21,650 nt of DNA from the IMG/VR virus record IMGVR_UViG_3300030103_001857, positions 2,891 to 24,540 of that record. The stretch is one strand, 5' to 3'. How positions within the stretch are numbered: position 1 is the stretch's first letter; each line of letters begins with the position of its first letter. This stretch comes from a virus. Positions 11,155 through 17,432 of this stretch are shown here, in pieces. Position numbers and translations under genes: made by a program. Under the pieces are notes generated by a model. It was not told where the DNA came from. It saw only the letters and a list, made by a program, of their open reading frames with translations, and did no database searches.

Positions 11155-11303
11155 TGATACTCTACACAGAACAACAACTAGAAGAAGCTTGGCAGGAAAA
11201 CTGTAAGGTTAGAGCAGGTCTTGGTTTACCTTGGTTTACTATAGAAGACTATCGACCTTTATTTGAAGAAGAGATGGAAAAGTTTATGTTAGGAGAATTT
11301 TAA
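11154..11303 (+). CDS. Small acidic protein (49 aa)
   Basis: The frame runs MILYTEQQLEEAWQENCKVR to FMLGEF. It shares one base with the upstream stop (TAATG) and one with the downstream start (TAATG), which is a classic translational-coupling arrangement and the main reason to call it. Composition is aromatic and acidic with no membrane segment. Similar small genes sit near the holin position in other marine phages, but I cannot name a family. Confidence 0.68.
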   Translation: MILYTEQQLEEAWQENCKVRAGLGLPWFTIEDYRPLFEEEMEKFMLGEF

Positions 11304-11746
11304 TGGGCTTCCCTTTTGAGATAATAACTATGTTGGCCTCGACAATCCTTGGTGGCTTGATGAGTGTCTGGGCTGAAAGTAGAAAGGCTAAAGCAGAACA
11401 ACAAAAGCTCTTGATAACTCGTGGTGAGTTTGGCATGAAAGAAAGACAACAGTCTTTAGACCATGGTTTAAAAGACAAAGGCTTTGCTTGGACTAGAAGA
11501 ATTATAGCTTTGACTTCAGTCTTTGCTATTGTGTTACTGCCTAAACTAGTAGCAGTCTACTATCCAGATGTTTCTGTAACTGTTGGTTACACTAACTGGA
11601 ACCCGGGCTTCTGGTTCTTTAAAGAAGGTAGAGAAATATTTGAATGGGTTACTTTTCAGGGCTTGGTAATTACACAACTAGATACTAACTTAGTCTCAGC
11701 AATTATAGGTATGTACTTTGGTGGTAGCTTAGTTAAAGGTAAATGA
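11303..11746 (+). CDS. Three-pass membrane protein, holin-like
   Basis: The 147-aa protein has hydrophobic segments at about 6-23 (EIITMLASTILGGLMSVW), 66-86 (RIIALTSVFAIVLLPKLVAV) and 126-143 (LVSAIIGMYFGGSL). A charged helix (24-60) lies between the first two. Its size, three passes and position between structural genes and another small membrane protein fit a three-pass holin that would permeabilise the inner membrane at lysis. Related proteins in marine phages are often left as unknown membrane or structural proteins, so the holin call is tentative. No endolysin is visible next to it. Confidence 0.58.
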   Translation: MGFPFEIITMLASTILGGLMSVWAESRKAKAEQQKLLITRGEFGMKERQQSLDHGLKDKGFAWTRRIIALTSVFAIVLLPKLVAVYYPDVSVTVGYTNWNPGFWFFKEGREIFEWVTFQGLVITQLDTNLVSAIIGMYFGGSLVKGK

Positions 11747-12033
11747 TGAATACAAAGACATGGATGGACTTACTAGAAACTGTTGGGATTCCAGCAGCTT
11801 TTGCTATAGCAGCTGGTTGGATGGTTTGGAAATTATTTAATCATTTAATAGCAGATGTACACAAAAAATTAGATACTCAACACGGTATGATAGTAGCTTT
11901 GATAGATAGAATAAGACAAATAGATAATGACATTATAAGAATAGACACAATGTGTCGGACAGCTATGGGTGTACCTGTAGATGTCGATAGGTTAGCAAGG
12001 GCAGATGGAAAAAAAGACCAACGAAAAGATTGA
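11743..12033 (+). CDS. Small membrane protein with helical tail (96 aa)
   Basis: One hydrophobic segment (about 14-33, VGIPAAFAIAAGWMVWKLF) is followed by a long charged helix that includes ALIDRIRQIDNDIIRIDTMC. It overlaps the upstream membrane gene by four bases (ATGATG arrangement). The one-pass plus coiled-coil layout recalls holin partners or antiholins in marine phages. It is the last gene before the curli cassette, and its final codons carry part of the csgF ribosome binding site. Confidence 0.6.
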   Translation: MMNTKTWMDLLETVGIPAAFAIAAGWMVWKLFNHLIADVHKKLDTQHGMIVALIDRIRQIDNDIIRIDTMCRTAMGVPVDVDRLARADGKKDQRKD

Positions 12034-12037
12034 GGAG
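12032..12037 (+). promoter_or_regulatory. csgF ribosome binding site
   Basis: GAGGAG lies 9 bases before ATG at 12047. It selects this Met rather than the one at 12005, and it places a normal signal peptide (MKILSTLFIVLLLGVSNA) at the N-terminus. Confidence 0.75.
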
Positions 12038-12046
12038 ATAATAGAA

Positions 12047-12502
12047 ATGAAAATATTAAGCACGTTATTTATAGTATTGTTGCTCGGTGTTAGTAATGCT
12101 TTAGTCGGAGATGAGTTAGTACATAAGTTTAAGTCACCATCATTTAGTGGTATCAATAGCTCAGCCCATTACCTAACCATAGAGAACCAAGAGTTCAATA
12201 GAAAGGCAGCTATTGAAGCTGAAATCAGAGCTTATCGAGAAGAGCTAGAAAGAGAAGCAGACAATACAACTCTAGCAAGATTTATCAGAAACTTAGAATC
12301 AAGAATATATGCTCAACTATCCAGACAACTAGTAGATGCTTTGTTTGGTGAAAACCCAAGTACTTTCGGGACTTTAGAGCTAATGGGTAACACCATAGAA
12401 TACAGTGTTAGTGCTGATGGCACTATGATTACATTAAAGATTACAGATGCAGAAGGGAATGTTACAGAGATTACTGTTCCTATCGGTTCTTTTACTTTCT
12501 AG
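12047..12502 (+). CDS. csgF: CsgF-like curli assembly protein
   Basis: The 151-aa product has a signal peptide (MKILSTLFIVLLLGVSNA). The mature N-terminus, LVHKFKSPSFSGINSSAHYL, matches the conserved CsgF start of E. coli (FQFRNPNFGGNPNNGAFLL). CsgF inserts this N-terminal segment into the CsgG pore and helps couple secreted curlin to the cell surface. A helical middle (about 55-90) follows. The C-terminus matches the CsgF beta-sheet pattern (FGTLELMGNTIEYSVSADGT, then LKITDAEGNVTEITVPIGSF). It stands directly before csgG, as in compact csgGF pairs. csgF/csgG-type genes have, as I recall, been reported in pelagic phages. The last 56 bases also encode the CsgG signal peptide. Confidence 0.88.
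   Translation: MKILSTLFIVLLLGVSNALVGDELVHKFKSPSFSGINSSAHYLTIENQEFNRKAAIEAEIRAYREELEREADNTTLARFIRNLESRIYAQLSRQLVDALFGENPSTFGTLELMGNTIEYSVSADGTMITLKITDAEGNVTEITVPIGSFTF
12447..12502 (+). other. Dual-coding overlap: CsgF C-terminus / CsgG signal peptide
   Basis: Residues 134-151 of CsgF and residues 1-18 of CsgG come from the same bases, with csgG in the +1 frame. The upstream frame reads alternating Thr/Ile/Val-type beta codons; the shifted frame reads Leu, Phe and Val codons that form the hydrophobic core of the lipoprotein signal. Confidence 0.8.
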
Positions 12503-13265
12503 TTGTTCAAGTCTTAGACATAGTTCTCTCCTAGATGAGAATGTTATAGGAGCTTATTCAAAGAAAAGACCAAGTACCGTATTAGAGTTACAGTCAGAAG
12601 AGTTAAAAAACTTAAGACCGGCTAAGCTTAAGCCGACTATTGCTATTTATCCTAATAGCTTCACAGACCTAACAGGGCAAAGAAAGAGTAACAGTACCTT
12701 TGCTTTATTCAGTTCTGCTATTACACAGTCACCTGATGCTTTACTTATCAGGGCTTTTAAACATGCTGCAGATGGTCAGTTTTTTACAGTTGTCGAGAGA
12801 GTAGGCTTAGATAACCTCACCAAAGAACGACAAATAATTAGAACAACCCGTAAGGACTTTGAAGATAATACAGAGTTAAACCCTCTTATCTTTGCAGGTC
12901 TACTGGTTCAGGGTGGAGTCATTTCGTATGACACAAACCTAAAAAGTGGTGGTAATGGTGCTAGATATCTAGGTATCGGTATGAGCCGCCAGTATCGTGA
13001 GGACACTGTCACAGTATCTTTACGATTAGTTTCTGTTAATACCGGAGAGATATTAATAGAAGTACTAACATCAAAGACTATCCTATCTGTAGGAGTCTCT
13101 AACGATGTCTTTAGATTTATTGAAGCTGGGACAGAGTTAGTAGAAATAGAATCTGGTGTTACACAAAACGAAAGTGTATCTATTGCTCTCCAGAAAGCGA
13201 TAGAGACAAGTGTGCTAGAAATAGTACAACAAGGAATAGAGAGGAGATTTTGGAGTTATGAATAG
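12447..13265 (+). CDS. csgG: CsgG-like outer-membrane curli secretion channel
   Basis: CsgG forms a nonameric lipoprotein pore that exports curlin subunits. This 272-aa protein has a lipoprotein signal with lipobox LSSC (Cys20). Family blocks line up well with E. coli CsgG: LTGQ (75-78), VERVGLDNLTKERQIIR (116-132), LKSGGNGARYLGIG (165-178), NTGEILIEVLTSKTILS (198-214), DVFRFIE (220-226) and IERRFW (264-269). Phe88 aligns with the pore-constriction Phe56 (mature E. coli numbering). The positions of the other constriction residues, Tyr51 and Asn55, are not conserved, and there is one extra residue before the Phe. The protein stops just after the last conserved helix, so it lacks the C-terminal extension of E. 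coli CsgG. The start is ATG 12447, or possibly 12459; ribosome binding sites are weak at both. Confidence 0.93.
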   Translation: MQKGMLQRLLFLSVLLLSSCSSLRHSSLLDENVIGAYSKKRPSTVLELQSEELKNLRPAKLKPTIAIYPNSFTDLTGQRKSNSTFALFSSAITQSPDALLIRAFKHAADGQFFTVVERVGLDNLTKERQIIRTTRKDFEDNTELNPLIFAGLLVQGGVISYDTNLKSGGNGARYLGIGMSRQYREDTVTVSLRLVSVNTGEILIEVLTSKTILSVGVSNDVFRFIEAGTELVEIESGVTQNESVSIALQKAIETSVLEIVQQGIERRFWSYE

Positions 13266-13962
13266 AATAATTATATTGTTAGCTTTCTTAGGCTTTATGG
13301 TTAAAGCCGATAATGAAATATACATCAATCAAGTTGGTGCAACTTTAAACTTAGATGTTGAACAGCTAGGTGGTTCCAACCTTATTGGTGGTCTTGATGC
13401 TGCCTCAGGTCAGATGACTGCTCTAGAATTAGCTGGTAGTTCTATGACTTTAGACATCAATCAATTAGGGGATTCCAACAAATTTATTGGAGACATTGTC
13501 CTAGATTCACTAGTAGGTTTTTTTGAATTTGACGGTGATAGTAATATATTTGAAATTCAAGTAGACCCAACAGATACTTATAGTGCCGATGGTGGTAATT
13601 ATAATGTTGACGTTACAGGGTCAAGCAATGAATTTGAATTAAATATTGCTACCAATGCTTTAGCAGAATACTTAGACCTCGACTGGGTTATCAATGGTGA
13701 TTCAAATACCATAGACTACACAATAGATGTCGATGGAGCTACATCCTATCTAGATATAGATGGTGACTCAAACAGCTTAGTCTACAACGGTAGTGGCTAT
13801 GCTGATGGTTACTTTTATCTAGACCAAACAGGGGATAGCCGAGCATTTAATATTACACAGAGTTCAACCTTAGCAAGTGATTGGCTTAAGATTATTTCTA
13901 CTGGCAATAGTGGTACTGTCTGCATCATACAAAATGATGGCGGCACCAGCACAAGTTGCTAG
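13258..13962 (+). CDS. Curlin-like (CsgA/CsgB-type) repeat protein
   Basis: A signal peptide (MNRIIILLAFLGFMVKA) precedes a 217-aa mature chain with about eight repeats of the curlin type, 22-33 residues apart: INQVG/EQLGGSN (23-41), LDINQLGDSNKF (65-76), FEFDGDSNIFEIQ (89-101), VDVTGSSNEFELNI (117-130), WVINGDSNTIDYTI (143-156), YLDIDGDSNSLVYN (164-177), YLDQTGDSRAFNITQ (187-201) and IISTGNSGTVCIIQ (212-225). CsgA repeats have the pattern QxGxxNxA...Q. Here GxSN is kept but many ladder Gln residues are Asp or Glu, so the protein is acidic. Cys222 and Cys234 are near the end. It follows csgG with an 8-base overlap and a strong GAGAGGAG site, so it is the natural candidate substrate of the encoded channel. 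It could instead be a non-amyloid beta-solenoid; the fold prediction is firmer than the function. Confidence 0.78.
   Translation: MNRIIILLAFLGFMVKADNEIYINQVGATLNLDVEQLGGSNLIGGLDAASGQMTALELAGSSMTLDINQLGDSNKFIGDIVLDSLVGFFEFDGDSNIFEIQVDPTDTYSADGGNYNVDVTGSSNEFELNIATNALAEYLDLDWVINGDSNTIDYTIDVDGATSYLDIDGDSNSLVYNGSGYADGYFYLDQTGDSRAFNITQSSTLASDWLKIISTGNSGTVCIIQNDGGTSTSC
13315..13932 (+). repeat. Curlin-type protein repeats
   Basis: This region encodes residues 20-225 of the curlin-like protein, with the recurring core G-x-S-N flanked by alternating beta residues. The Asn positions (or equivalents) are 41, 74, 96, 124, 150, 172, 195 and 219. The first repeats keep the Q-x-G pair of true curlin; later ones substitute Asp. 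The last repeat (212-225) lies in DNA that also encodes the next protein's signal peptide. Confidence 0.75.
13877..13962 (+). other. Dual-coding overlap: curlin-like C-terminus / FecR-protein signal peptide
   Basis: Eighty-six bases are read in two frames. The curlin-like frame gives residues 207-234, including the last repeat and both Cys residues. The +1 frame gives MIGLRLFLLAIVVLSASYKM and the signal-peptidase region. Starting the FecR protein at the later ATGs (13931, 13934) would remove its signal peptide, so the overlap is needed for export. Confidence 0.75.
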
Positions 13963-14992
13963 TATAGGAAGCATAACAGAACTAAAAGGCTTAGGGAGAG
14001 TAGTAAGGGAACAAGACCCCTTTGCTGCTGCTCTCTCCTTTGCTATTAATAGTTTTGATAATGTTGAGACTTCTAATGGTCGGATAGGTATTACTTTTCT
14101 TGACGAATCTCAAGTCCGTCTCACAGAACATTCACAATTAGTTATAGATGAGTTTATCTATGACCCTGACCCATCTAAATCTAAGATGGCTCTACAGTTT
14201 GCTAGTGGCACAGCTAGGTTTATTAGTGGCAAACTAGCTACTATCAATAAAGAAAACATATCTATCGAGACTCCTAGTGCTACCATTGGTATTAGAGGCA
14301 CAGACTTTACTGTTACTGTCGATGAACTAGGCAGGTCTTTGATAATACTACTACCAGATGAGAACGGTATTGCTTCCGGTGAGATAGTTGTTTCTACTCT
14401 AGTAGGACAAGTAGTTCTCAACAAGCCCTATCAAGCTACTACAGTTGAGTTGTTTGAGTCGGCACCTAGTAGTCCTGTTATCCTAGACTTGACTCTAGAT
14501 ATTATTGACAACATGTTGATTGTCAATCCACCAAAGGAAGACCCAAACTTTGTTAGCGAAGAAGAACAAACAGATGGCTCTGATAATATCCTAGACATAG
14601 ATTACTTAGAGTTTGATGAACTAGAACAAGACTACTTAGCAGAAGATAACCTAGAGTTTACTGAGTTAGATATCAACTATCTAGATGTAAATTTCTTAGA
14701 AGACCTCTTGAGTATCATAGAGGAAGTAGATGAGTTAGAACAAAATGTTTTGAACACTGGTGACATTAATGTTCAAGGCACAGCTTTTGGTTTTGACTCT
14801 AACACACAGGTAAATACTTTTGTTACTGACACAGTGCTAACTTTCTTAAGACAGGTAGAAGACACAGTAAGATTAGATTTAGATACGAACAACAGTTACA
14901 AGGTTTTAATTATACAAGATGGCAAAGCAATTACTATTACTCTTAATGGCGGTAGTGACTCTTCCATTACTATCAAGCAGTCTTCCGGCTAA
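13877..14992 (+). CDS. Exported FecR-domain protein with acidic tail
   Basis: A GTG start gives a signal peptide (MIGLRLFLLAIVVLSASYKM, cleavage likely near AA-APAQ). A clear FecR domain spans about 40-190: DNVETSNGRIGITFLDESQV, LTEHSQLVIDEFIYDP, FASGTARFISGKLA, then ISIETPSATIGIRGTDFTV. FecR domains are periplasmic and commonly sense or relay envelope signals. Here there is no N-terminal anti-sigma segment, so it is the exported stand-alone type rather than a classical FecR regulator. Residues 227-290 are very acidic, with repeated YLE/FLED/LEF pieces. The C-terminal 30 residues (YKVLIIQDGKAITITLNGG, then DSSITIKQ) look like one curlin-type repeat. Stand-alone FecR-domain genes often neighbour CHASE2 cyclases in bacteria, and the same order occurs here. 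I expect it to act with the cyclase, and possibly to touch the curlin-like protein. Confidence 0.85.
   Translation: MIGLRLFLLAIVVLSASYKMMAAPAQVASIGSITELKGLGRVVREQDPFAAALSFAINSFDNVETSNGRIGITFLDESQVRLTEHSQLVIDEFIYDPDPSKSKMALQFASGTARFISGKLATINKENISIETPSATIGIRGTDFTVTVDELGRSLIILLPDENGIASGEIVVSTLVGQVVLNKPYQATTVELFESAPSSPVILDLTLDIIDNMLIVNPPKEDPNFVSEEEQTDGSDNILDIDYLEFDELEQDYLAEDNLEFTELDINYLDVNFLEDLLSIIEEVDELEQNVLNTGDINVQGTAFGFDSNTQVNTFVTDTVLTFLRQVEDTVRLDLDTNNSYKVLIIQDGKAITITLNGGSDSSITIKQSSG
14919..14992 (+). other. Dual-coding overlap: FecR-protein C-terminus / next signal peptide
   Basis: Seventy-four bases encode FecR-protein residues 348-371 (AITITLNGGSDSSITIKQ and flanks) and, in the +1 frame, MAKQLLLLLMAVVTLPLLSS of the next protein. 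Alternating Ile/Thr codons (ATT ACT) become TTA CTA leucine codons when read one base on. Confidence 0.78.
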
Positions 14993-15362
14993 GCCTGATA
15001 TATATTGGCGGATTACTAAAGCACCTTACCTCAACAAACCAGAGGCTTATGTAGATTACAGTCTACCCAAAGCTCAGCTACATTTTAAACTACAAGAAAA
15101 ACCTTATCAAGAATTTATAGCCTTACAGCTTTTGGATATCTATACCACACACAGGGCTGTCAATATTAAAGGCTATGCTTTAGAAGCTAATCCTCTACTG
15201 CCCAAACAACCTTCCTTAGAGTTGTTACTAGTTCTTAAAGGTGCTAGTAGTTATTTGATTATTAGAGATGCTTCTCCTCAACAGATAACAAATATCAATA
15301 CTCTGTATCGCTTAGTACTGCTCAACAATCTTTACGTCATGCACAAAGCAGGTGACTTATGA
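14919..15362 (+). CDS. Exported or membrane protein, DUF5658-like (147 aa)
   Basis: An N-terminal hydrophobic signal (MAKQLLLLLMAVVTLPLLSS) is followed by an extended region. A block then appears at about 69-103, LQLLDIYTTHRAVNIKGYAL followed by EANPLL and, after a short gap, LLLVLKGASSYLI. The D-x-x-TT...G...EANPLL arrangement is that of small DUF5658-type membrane proteins of unknown function; the match is from memory and moderate. It sits between the FecR protein and the CHASE2 cyclase, overlapping the first by 74 bases and the second by ATGA. It may be a membrane partner of the sensor. Confidence 0.62.
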   Translation: MAKQLLLLLMAVVTLPLLSSSLPAKPDIYWRITKAPYLNKPEAYVDYSLPKAQLHFKLQEKPYQEFIALQLLDIYTTHRAVNIKGYALEANPLLPKQPSLELLLVLKGASSYLIIRDASPQQITNINTLYRLVLLNNLYVMHKAGDL

Positions 15363-17089
15363 AGTGGGCGAGTTTACTTTTATTTCTACTAACACTACCT
15401 CTAGTCTTTAATGCTCCGCCTCTGGAGATACTAAGACTCAAAACCTTTGATGCCCTTGTCAAGACTCCAGAGCCTACTGGTTACTTTACTATCCTCAACA
15501 TTGATGAAGAGTTTATAGACCAGCAAGGTGGTTACCCTTTACCTCGTCAAACCTTAGCAGACATACACCTTAAGTTATTACAACAAGGAGCATTAGGTGT
15601 TGGTTGGACAATACTCTTTCCTCATCCTGATAGACTAGGAGGCGATGAAGCCTTTGCTGAGATGCTTGGTCTAGCTCCTAGTGTCATAGCAATGCCCGAA
15701 GTAAACAATAATAAATACCCACAGACACACGGCACAGTTATTTTAGGACCTGATGTTAGTTTAGTACATGCTTCAGGGTTTTTAGAAAACATCCAAGTCT
15801 TAAAAGACTCTGCAGCTCAAGGAGCTGTGTCAGTGCCGGTTGATATAGATAACCTAGTTAGACAGATACCTCTTATCCAACAAACTCCAGATGGTTGGGT
15901 AGCTTCTTTCGGTACAGAAGTTCTTAAGATACTAGGCGGTGGTAATACTTATCAAATCAAAACTAATGAGAACGGTATAGAGATGATAAGAGTAAAAGGT
16001 ATACCACCTATCCCAACAGACTCGACAGGTAAGAAATGGATTAGTTGGGTCGAAACACCAGAGACTAACCTAACTGAAATGGATGTAAAGGGTAAGTTTG
16101 TCTTTGTTGGTTTTACTGCTGCTGGAATACAGAGACAACTAGCAACTCCTGTAGGCCTATTAGAGCCACATAAAATCCAAGCAGCTCTAGCTGAGTCTAT
16201 TTTACTAGAGACACCCAACATACCGGACTATCGTTTGTTTGCCGAACTAAGTATCTTAGTAGTAGCTGGTTTACTAGTGGCTATCTTAACTGGTTTCTTA
16301 GGTATTACTACAGGCTTAGTCTCAGCCTTAACTATTTTTGGTGGGGTAGCTTATCTTGGTTGGTCTTTTATACAGCAGAATCTTTTAATAGATGTTACAT
16401 GGACTCTAATAAGTTTGTTTCTGATTGCTGCTCAACAGTTCTATCTAAACTTTAGAACTCAGTTTAAACTTAGACAACAAATCAAGAAGCAGTTCTCTAC
16501 TTATCTTGACCCTCGACAAGTGGCTAGACTACAAAAGAATCCAGAGTTATTAAGATTAGGTGGTGAAAGAAGAAACTGTACGATAATGTTTACAGATGTC
16601 AGAGGTTTTACTTCTATGTCAGAGAAACTAGAACCAGAAGAAGTTATTGAGATAATGAACAAAGCTTTAACTATTCAAGCAGATGCGGTCAAAGCTAATG
16701 AAGGGATGGTAGATAAATATATTGGCGATGCCATGATGGCAGTTTGGAATGCTCCAGTAGATGTTGAGGACCATGAACAGAAAGCTATTAAGACAGCCCT
16801 TCAAATACGACACGCAATGCAAGAAGCACAGTTAGATATTGAAATTGGTATTGGAATAAATTCTGGAGAAGTTGTTGCAGGAAATATGGGAAGTGCATCT
16901 CGTTTTGAATATAGTGTATTAGGCGATGCTTGTAATCTAGCAGCTCGATTAGAGTCTTCATGTAAAACAGTAGGTAAAAATTTAGTTATAGGTGAGGCAA
17001 CCATCAGCAAATATGAGGGTGAAGTAACAGAGTTAGAGTCTATTCTTGTCAAAGGTAAGGAAAAACCAGTAAAAATCTACACAATATAG
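15359..17089 (+). CDS. CHASE2-domain class III adenylate/guanylate cyclase
   Basis: The 576-aa sensor enzyme makes cAMP or cGMP. Order: N-terminal membrane segment (about 3-18); CHASE2 extracytoplasmic domain (about 20-285) with the typical FDALVKTPEPTGYFTILNID, PLPRQTLADIHLKLLQQGAL and FPHPDR pattern; three membrane segments (about 293-313, 316-338, 341-363); a linker helix; and a class III cyclase domain (about 400-576). The catalytic set is complete: metal Asp413 (FTDVRGFTSM) and Asp457, base-selecting Lys453 (DKYIGDAMM) and Ser519 (YSVLGDACN), and transition-state Asn526 and Arg530 (NLAARLES). Ser519 sits where class IIIb enzymes usually have Thr, which favours ATP, but a direct assay would be needed to fix the substrate. 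Hand-counted GC falls from roughly 37-47% in the CHASE2 part to about 32-33% in the cyclase part, suggesting a mosaic origin. It is the last gene of the cassette and of the plus-strand block. Confidence 0.92.
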   Translation: MKWASLLLFLLTLPLVFNAPPLEILRLKTFDALVKTPEPTGYFTILNIDEEFIDQQGGYPLPRQTLADIHLKLLQQGALGVGWTILFPHPDRLGGDEAFAEMLGLAPSVIAMPEVNNNKYPQTHGTVILGPDVSLVHASGFLENIQVLKDSAAQGAVSVPVDIDNLVRQIPLIQQTPDGWVASFGTEVLKILGGGNTYQIKTNENGIEMIRVKGIPPIPTDSTGKKWISWVETPETNLTEMDVKGKFVFVGFTAAGIQRQLATPVGLLEPHKIQAALAESILLETPNIPDYRLFAELSILVVAGLLVAILTGFLGITTGLVSALTIFGGVAYLGWSFIQQNLLIDVTWTLISLFLIAAQQFYLNFRTQFKLRQQIKKQFSTYLDPRQVARLQKNPELLRLGGERRNCTIMFTDVRGFTSMSEKLEPEEVIEIMNKALTIQADAVKANEGMVDKYIGDAMMAVWNAPVDVEDHEQKAIKTALQIRHAMQEAQLDIEIGIGINSGEVVAGNMGSASRFEYSVLGDACNLAARLESSCKTVGKNLVIGEATISKYEGEVTELESILVKGKEKPVKIYTI

Positions 17090-17097
17090 GCTAAATG

Positions 17098-17211
17098 CTG
17101 TGAGAGCCACAGATATCGCTTCTAAGCAATTTTGTTAGATTTTGGACGTATAGTATTACTTGAATGTCTTACGTTCTATACAAGCGATTCTGTGAGGTCA
17201 TTTTTTCACAG
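17098..17211. other. Convergent intergenic region with nested inverted repeats
   Basis: This is the gap between the end of the cyclase gene and the end of the minus-strand block; I find no ORF or tRNA in it. Inverted repeats seen: CTGTG/CACAG (17098-17102 and 17108-17112), ATCGCTT/AAGCGAT (17115-17121 and 17182-17188), GTATAG/CTATAC (17148-17153 and 17076-17081 or, within the region, 17176-17181), and CTGTGA/TCACAG (17190-17195 and 17206-17211). CTGTGA at 17098 can also pair with TCACAG at 17206, which would close the whole region into one long structure. A bidirectional transcription end or a structured RNA is possible. Confidence 0.5.
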
Positions 17212-17212
17212 A
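17189..17212 (+). terminator. Candidate terminator after the cyclase gene
   Basis: TCTGTGA (17189-17195) and TCACAGA (17206-17212) form a 7-bp stem around a T-rich 10-base loop. TTTAGTTTTTC follows on the plus strand. The stem is short and only moderately GC-rich, so it is a weak intrinsic terminator at best. On the minus strand no T run follows it. Confidence 0.4.
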
Positions 17213-17213
17213 T

Positions 17214-17432
17214 TTAGTTTTTCAGGGCATTAACTTCTTTTTCTAGAAATCTATGTAGAGGTTCGAGTTTAACTTTACCATTCCTAACAATACTCTTAAT
17301 AATTTCTCTTTCATGTAGAGGAAAGATAACATCAATCTTGTTTTCAGGTAACATGCTAAGCTCTGTTACTACTTTATTTTCTCTAGTTAATAAAACTTTA
17401 AAGCTAATTAAGTTTGCTTCTTTATTATTCAT
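17214..17432 (-). CDS. Small protein at the end of the nucleotide-metabolism block (72 aa)
   Basis: A charged soluble protein starting MNNKEANLISFKVLLTRENK and ending EKEVNALKN. It contains a stretch HEREIIKSIVRNGKVKLEPL that looks like a small DNA/RNA-binding or regulatory fold, but I recognise no family. Its start overlaps the nrdB stop by 8 bases, which supports co-translation with the reductase. It is the last gene of the minus-strand operon, ending 2 bases from the candidate hairpin. Confidence 0.6.
   Translation of the reverse strand: MNNKEANLISFKVLLTRENKVVTELSMLPENKIDVIFPLHEREIIKSIVRNGKVKLEPLHRFLEKEVNALKN

Follow-up and report, generated by a model that had tools for sequence, protein, structure and literature searches.

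A curli-type gene module with a FecR-domain protein and a CHASE2 cyclase in a viral contig and its rare counterpart in alphaproteobacteria

In a stretch of viral DNA of 21,650 nucleotides (the window, covering positions 2891-24540 of the 24,540-base IMG/VR virus record IMGVR_UViG_3300030103_001857), we have characterized a module of genes coding for homologues of the curli proteins CsgF and CsgG, together with a protein resembling curlin, an exported protein with a FecR domain, a small membrane protein and a CHASE2 cyclase. In agreement with a preliminary description of this DNA, these are six adjacent and overlapping frames at positions 12005-17089, all open and on one strand, with successive overlaps of 56, 8, 86, 74 and 4 bases from csgF on. 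In our interpretation, to which we assign about an even chance of being correct, they would constitute an accessory envelope-sensing curli operon that is related to a rare alphaproteobacterial one and ends the virion-gene (late) arm of a SAR11-type podophage. The combination itself, which was not known to the author of the preliminary description, is already published: in pelagic podophages and myophages, PMC9599517 (2022) reports the order CsgF-CsgG-CsgA/B-FecR-(CsgA/B)-adenylate cyclase (this and the other cited articles were consulted in part). New in our study are the bacterial operons of the same order, the recognition of the preceding gene h96 as part of the module, the predicted fold of the FecR protein, the retention of FecR and cyclase and the conservation of cyclase residues. 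In the sections of the literature consulted, the h96 gene (for which no aimed search was made), the FecR fold and the presence of FecR and cyclase in a bacterial curli operon are not mentioned. The genes of the module are:

11743..12033, plus strand: h96, a protein of 96 residues with one transmembrane (TM) segment and a coiled coil, the constant first gene of the module, omitted from the preliminary description
12047..12502, plus strand: CsgF; the frame opens at 12005 and a start at 12047 yields a hydrophobic leader
12447..13265, plus strand: CsgG, an outer-membrane pore lipoprotein (PF03783, 2.2e-50)
13258..13962, plus strand: curlin-like repeat protein and presumed fibre subunit, assigned from a beta-solenoid model and its alignment to phage curlin-like proteins
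13877..14992, plus strand: exported FecR-domain protein with a GTG start, a signalling fold, a low-confidence linker and a conserved C-terminal beta tail
14919..15362, plus strand: membrane protein of 147 residues, weakly DUF5658-like, an optional insert between FecR and cyclase
15359..17089, plus strand: CHASE2 sensor and class III adenylate cyclase (PF05226, 1.1e-30; PF00211, Guanylate_cyc, 2.1e-24)

The family labels proposed initially hold for CsgF (PF10614, 5.9e-16, 59.3 bits at a cut-off of 25.8), CsgG (171.3 bits at a cut-off of 20.8), FecR (PF04773, 3.7e-11, 43.7 bits at a cut-off of 24) and the CHASE2 and Guanylate_cyc domains, which all score above their Pfam cut-offs, but not at this level for the curlin-like protein of the window and for the small membrane protein, which reaches 13.8 bits against DUF5658 (PF18902, cut-off 25.2), with two of its relatives at 20 and 14 bits. 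Four of the six module proteins match PHROG families of unknown function. Signal peptides were assigned by eye and without a predictor.

To follow the module in viral contigs, we collected, from scans for CsgG and for the cyclase, the best 80 of 559 confirmed and the best 80 of 375 relatives, respectively, and from a third scan all 20 relatives of the small membrane protein, a sample that leans towards close kin. Together with the Pelagibacter phage HTVC008M, the Methylophilales phage Melnitz and one fragment of 1.5 kb, these loci form 83 clusters, that of the window included. A locus selected by its CsgG is found in 54 dereplicated clusters, 44 of which extend for at least 1.5 kb upstream and 37 for at least 4.5 kb downstream. 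Within clusters offering this room, csgF precedes csgG in 44/44, and the curlin-like and FecR genes follow in 37/37 and the cyclase gene in 32/37. Co-occurrence is thus common, and the order is constant in dozens of IMG/VR contigs. The presumed six-gene unit has to be corrected in that the small DUF5658-like gene is optional, as the gap between FecR and cyclase is at most 150 bases and free of any insert in 26/32 contigs and is occupied in six. Inserts seen over all loci are, among others, the DUF5658-like protein, a further curlin (in HTVC008M and Melnitz) and, in L076 (4864-6546), a C-5 cytosine methylase gene, which indicates that this slot accepts foreign genes. Open frames encode 102 distinct cyclases and 74 FecR proteins; the only split frames noticed, for which no systematic count was made, are FecR of L171 and the cyclase of L180, two loci that contain unknown bases. 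The 1.5-kb fragment (L003), an unverified and unannotated record named Salmonella phage S.Kent 1-2-1 with a CsgG 41% identical to that of the window, is likely a stray.

The gene h96 also belongs to the phage module, being located upstream in 44/44 clusters with room and duplicated in eight. Its frames (n=161) have a median length of 98 residues, the longest comprising 117, and only six of 50,697 phage records, all of HTVC008M or Melnitz, match at E ≤0.01. It is probably identical to the gene labelled 'histidine kinase' in PMC9599517. The label does not suit h96, as seven h96 proteins do not contain any match to HisKA or HATPase domains at E ≤1; the best Pfam matches, both below cut-off, are DUF1380 (5.7e-4) and YvrJ (0.017).

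The predicted structure of the FecR protein contains a leader helix (residues 2-20), a confident beta domain starting around residue 31, a low-confidence linker (around 207-294) and a beta part at the C-terminus that is predicted with intermediate confidence. Its beta domain resembles the cell-surface-signalling domain of PupR (6ovk_R, Z 15.9, root-mean-square deviation 2.3 over 135 residues) as well as a putative anti-sigma factor from Parabacteroides, represented by two entries (Z around 14). In the model, a leader but neither a cytoplasmic anti-sigma domain nor a TM helix is found ahead of the periplasmic domain, and the protein would thus be a free periplasmic signalling fold with no room for an anti-sigma domain. 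The tail terminates in a curlin-strand-like motif (Gly...Ile-x-Ile-x-Gln) that is present in 74/74 complete FecR proteins of cluster representatives compared to 0.3% of shuffled tails. Full-length relatives are rare: in the order containing Hyphomonas, 7/299 genomes show a match at E ≤1e-20, and among these the whole profile is covered only in Hyphomonas TMED17. In other alphaproteobacterial loci, FecR is located close to a CHASE2 cyclase (in 4/30 CHASE2 loci, two of them with divergent genes, and in 2/7 FecR loci), with no curli match within the approximately 1.5 kb seen on each side. This pairing suggests that the likely logic is one where periplasmic FecR would act on CHASE2 and thereby on the level of cyclic AMP (cAMP), and the fact that FecR outlasts the cyclase (37 versus 32 of 37) implies that it should also act without it.

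The cyclase of the window holds all six active-site residues that were checked, which we take to be the metal-binding Asp pair, the Lys/Asp pair recognizing adenine and the catalytic Asn/Arg pair. Among 102 distinct relatives, D413, K453, D457, D523 and R530 are found in all and N526 in 101, with Melnitz, carrying a Ser at the Asn position, as sole exception. With both domains and these residues in place, the sequence classifies the protein as a CHASE2 class III adenylate cyclase, which should make cAMP. The initial view of a phage cassette in which export of the curli type is joined to a FecR/CHASE2 cyclase, here with a retained active site, is supported.

Related operons exist in bacteria. 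In a scan of one genome per species covering 84,980 species, we examined the best 80 of 566 bacterial CsgG relatives with viral profiles and detected FecR and cyclase genes beside csgG in four loci, while the other 76 contain no such pair beside csgG within the stretch examined. One of the four (L180), filed under a planctomycete metagenome-assembled genome (TMED10), displays a phage-type module with two h96 genes; it is probably a misbinned phage and was left out of the bacterial count. The remaining three originate from metagenome-assembled genomes of Caulobacteraceae (L177 and L179) and from a 705-kb contig of Hyphomonas TMED17 (L178), and they share the gene order of the phage module amid neighbours that appear chromosome-like as judged by eye from their frames. 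Since the FecR proteins of L177 and L179 are 93% identical, the three loci represent two lineages. In phylogenetic trees, which were midpoint-rooted, the three bacterial cyclases and all viral ones group together with a support of 1.0 and to the exclusion of other alphaproteobacterial CHASE2 cyclases, the CsgG proteins of these loci and of L180 join 76 viral sequences (all except L003) with a support of 0.74, and the FecR proteins group with viral ones with a support of 0.55. Within the viral cyclases, the bacterial ones take a nested position that is weakly supported (0.24-0.67). With this nesting and the midpoint rooting, a transfer from bacteria to phages would follow from PMC9599517 and not from the present trees. 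In the sections consulted, the same study puts the cyclase outside bacterial curli operons; the three loci show that a bacterial curli operon, too, can include FecR and cyclase.

In the export apparatus, the profile of the CsgG family covers residues 2-255 of E. coli CsgG (E 4.1e-94). For the CsgF profile, the alignment to E. coli CsgF is confined to the N-terminal FxxPxFxG stretch and is weak (E 0.0087); searched as single sequence against the PDB, CsgF of the window finds no match at E ≤1. In the curli system, this N-terminal stretch is located in the CsgG pore, which it lines. Its apparent preservation makes us lean towards a retained contact between CsgG and CsgF, contrary to PMC9004378 (2022), where a divergence was inferred.

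The curlin-like protein of the window can be aligned to the first curlin-like proteins of HTVC008M (33%) and Melnitz (30%). It shows no match to the curlin repeat PF07012 at E ≤5, whereas its Melnitz orthologue matches with 8.6e-6. At the PF07012 cut-off of 20.7 bits, three of seven related phage and bacterial proteins pass (the second protein of HTVC008M with 33.1 bits and the first and second of Melnitz with 26 and 21.8 bits) and four fail. The model of the window protein is a beta-solenoid (predicted local distance difference test score, pLDDT, 81; predicted template modelling score, pTM, 0.78), for which Foldseek returned no match at E ≤0.001 and a second fold comparison retrieved general solenoids such as SufB (Z 17.6). 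The fold-search matches listed contain no CsgA structure, with FapC appearing at rank 50 (E 5.7), and a search of the PDB with the family profile identified four weak and unrelated chains (best E 0.017). Taken together, the presence of genes for a pore, a plug and a fibre indicates curli-type export.

The contig is viral and not host DNA, as evidenced by its origin in an IMG/VR record and the phage genes on both sides of the module. On the 5' side, plus-strand genes up to 11154 include those for tail-fibre-like and virion-like proteins, four large ones having no match to a PHROG family. On the 3' side, the minus strand encodes both subunits of a phage-type ribonucleotide reductase and a Cas4-like exonuclease after 17214. 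The space between virion arm and minus-strand genes is filled by h147, h96 and the six module genes. The large subunit of the reductase is closest to the Pelagibacter phage HTVC115P (59%), and the DNA polymerase of the near relative G001 to HTVC115P, HTVC103P and HTVC104P (52%), which makes a SAR11-type host likely; the matches listed for a large virion protein are only to Pseudomonas and Pseudoalteromonas phages (20-26%). At the positionally equivalent convergent junction of HTVC103P and HTVC115P, the curli genes are replaced by an Hsp20-family gene and small hypothetical genes, and in HTVC103P additionally by a homologue of h147, and we therefore regard the curli module as accessory at that spot. 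Two further features flank the module:

11303..11746, plus strand: h147, a membrane protein of 147 residues, an upstream neighbour outside the module that is common to other pelagiphages
17189..17212, plus strand: terminator-like hairpin after the cyclase gene and ahead of the convergent genes, from a consensus scan only

Matches to h147 are found in 23 of the 50,697 phage records (15 Pelagibacter and 6 Roseobacter phages among them) at up to 61% identity; its homologous stretch is part of a gene annotated as peptidase M15 in some pelagiphages, and it has no Pfam match at E ≤0.05. Between 10900 and 17600, we counted six terminator-like sites, compared to 3.5 (standard deviation 2.0) expected from shuffled sequences, and 18 promoter-type sites, with no excess over the expected 20.5. 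A protein of 72 residues (p72, phrog_27180), encoded on the minus strand at 17214-17432, also trails the module in many relatives, where its gene again has the opposite orientation. In the tail-fibre region just ahead of the window, the record (L005) is a scaffold, with unknown bases in short runs around its positions 1675-1690 and 2880-2893.

In the mechanism that we propose, CsgG would form a pore in the outer membrane with CsgF plugged into it, and the curlin-like protein would exit through this pore to assemble into an amyloid-like fibre on the infected cell. FecR, with the fold by which classical FecR regulators hear their outer-membrane partners but devoid of the anti-sigma part, would probably act on the curli machinery from within the periplasm and, in modules with a cyclase, would pass its state to CHASE2, so that cAMP would track export or the state of the envelope. 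The most likely use would be the coating or aggregation of the infected cell, either to exclude competing phages or to hold siblings close; aggregation and a defence against superinfection have also been proposed in PMC9599517. The account builds on the observed content, order and co-inheritance of the genes, the counterpart in bacteria, the folds predicted and the conservation of cyclase residues. Late expression, secretion, fibre formation, a contact between FecR and CHASE2, the output of cAMP, a benefit for the phage and the direction of transfer are all presumed, as are the display of amyloid and the effect on the host envelope suggested in the preliminary description.

Several observations weigh against an envelope-sensing curli operon. 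The literature consulted contains no demonstrated fibre or function for phage curli genes, and PMC9004378 reports no clumping in cultures infected by Melnitz. CsgE is described as absent from pelagiphage modules in PMC9599517, and none was noticed among the genes scanned, although no search was aimed at it. Overall confidence in the FecR model is low (mean pLDDT 69, pTM 0.49), and homology of the FecR tail to curlin is not claimed, as the scores of the tail profile were no better for real curlins than for shuffled sequences. The cyclase is missing in 5/37 clusters, where signalling is therefore dispensable. The fate of cAMP raises similar concerns. As putative hosts we have used 60 genomes of a presumptive SAR11-like order, 1.1-1.6 Mb in size, with a G+C content of 27-33% in the inspected loci and a rhodopsin gene in the centre genome G338. 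A domain binding cyclic nucleotide monophosphates is lacking in 39 of these genomes and in the other 21 resides in frames of at least 421 residues, except for one frame of 150 residues that is perhaps cut, with no receptor of the size of CRP found among the 60; 15 of them encode a cyclase domain of their own above cut-off, and seven related phage records contain no domain of this binding type. In the same genomes, one CsgG match (1.6e-6) lies in a frame of 446 residues and a second (9.6e-12) in one of 437. A family scan on L309 (57-3024) revealed an MscS-type channel with a cyclic-nucleotide-binding domain adjoining a class III cyclase gene, and these neighbours recur, by coordinates, in other presumptive SAR11-like genomes.

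As an improbable extension of the proposed mechanism, FecR might be a periplasmic sensor of curlin load, whose C-terminal beta tail would touch the amyloid or the pore and signal via CHASE2 to the cAMP-making enzyme. If true, this would define an amyloid-export checkpoint common to bacteria that has moved between phage families, and in hosts devoid of CRP, cAMP would act elsewhere, for example on an MscS-type channel, tying fibre export to the state of the membrane.

The alternative that survives best, which we consider possible but clearly the weaker proposition, views FecR as a structural part of the export machinery, either as periplasmic chaperone, as gate replacing CsgE or as fibre anchor, and the cyclase as separate and optional passenger. 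This would account for the constancy of FecR compared to the cyclase (37/37 versus 32/37), for its C-terminal tail being constant in 74/74 and for the cyclase-less loci L017, L024 and L075, where FecR is kept and no more than 10 bases separate it from the convergent p72 gene downstream. Conversely, the recurrence of FecR near CHASE2 cyclases outside curli operons and the presence of both genes in all three bacterial operons favour a signalling pair. Two other cyclase-less modules differ in what follows: in L062 (11528-13342), the module is succeeded by genes for a coiled-coil membrane protein and a short lipoprotein-like frame and, farther on, a phage lysozyme, resembling a lysis cassette, and in L069 (4505-5500) by a phage integrase gene on the opposite strand, implying that some carriers may be temperate.

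A repurposing of the CsgG/CsgF pore for lysis timing or depolarization, as proposed for Melnitz in PMC9004378, appears quite doubtful. It would fit the resemblance of h147, ahead of the module, to genes annotated as peptidase M15 in some pelagiphages and the lysozyme gene downstream of the module in L062, but a bare pore would not need the curlin-like gene that is found in 37/37 clusters, and the match of CsgG over residues 2-255 and the N-terminal stretch kept in CsgF, albeit weakly matched, also argue against it. Very unlikely is a pore by which cofactors or siderophores are taken up while FecR senses iron, one of the proposals in PMC9599517, which draws on the name of the FecR domain and on the iron limitation of the ocean; the fibre gene in 37/37 clusters speaks against it, and we rate iron regulation low because the modelled FecR protein has no anti-sigma domain and no room for one in the cytoplasm. 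Finally, a joining of unrelated neighbours by chance or misassembly is refuted by the gene order, which is maintained across dozens of contigs, in two types of cultured phage and at the three bacterial loci, and its probability is negligible.

In the ocean, phage curli genes are frequent (PMC9599517), csgG holding one of the top ranks in abundance of virulence-type genes carried by phages in the marine data of PMC7003362 (2020), and csgGF genes have been described in temperate sediment viruses (PMC9636769, 2022) and curli operons in HTVC008M and Melnitz (PMC7029224, 2020; PMC9004378). With the type VIII secretion module of HTVC023P-type podophages and pelagimyophages (PMC9599517), the window shares the same five genes in order, with one or two genes preceding CsgF, but it contains a single curlin gene, a small membrane protein in the slot that can be occupied by a second curlin, and a preceding gene that encodes a membrane and coiled-coil protein of 96 residues without kinase domain. 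The same genes in the same order are found in HTVC008M and Melnitz, which unlike the window contain two copies of h96 and a second curlin-repeat gene, with the cyclase of Melnitz also differing in its catalytic Asn. Compared to FecR/PupR anti-sigma regulators, the FecR protein of the window would share the periplasmic signalling fold, but it is predicted to carry only a leader in place of the preceding anti-sigma domain. A free periplasmic FecR domain and a small membrane protein instead of a 'kinase' would turn attention away from iron or two-component control and shift the focus to the contacts of FecR with CHASE2, CsgG and the curlin-like protein. The bacterial operons resemble the phage module in their order CsgF-CsgG-curlin(s)-FecR-CHASE2 cyclase and differ in their chromosome-like surroundings, in containing no h96 match, in the longer C-terminus of their cyclases and, in L178, in a FecR tail that lacks the final Gln motif; with the same parts, they offer a possible tractable counterpart.

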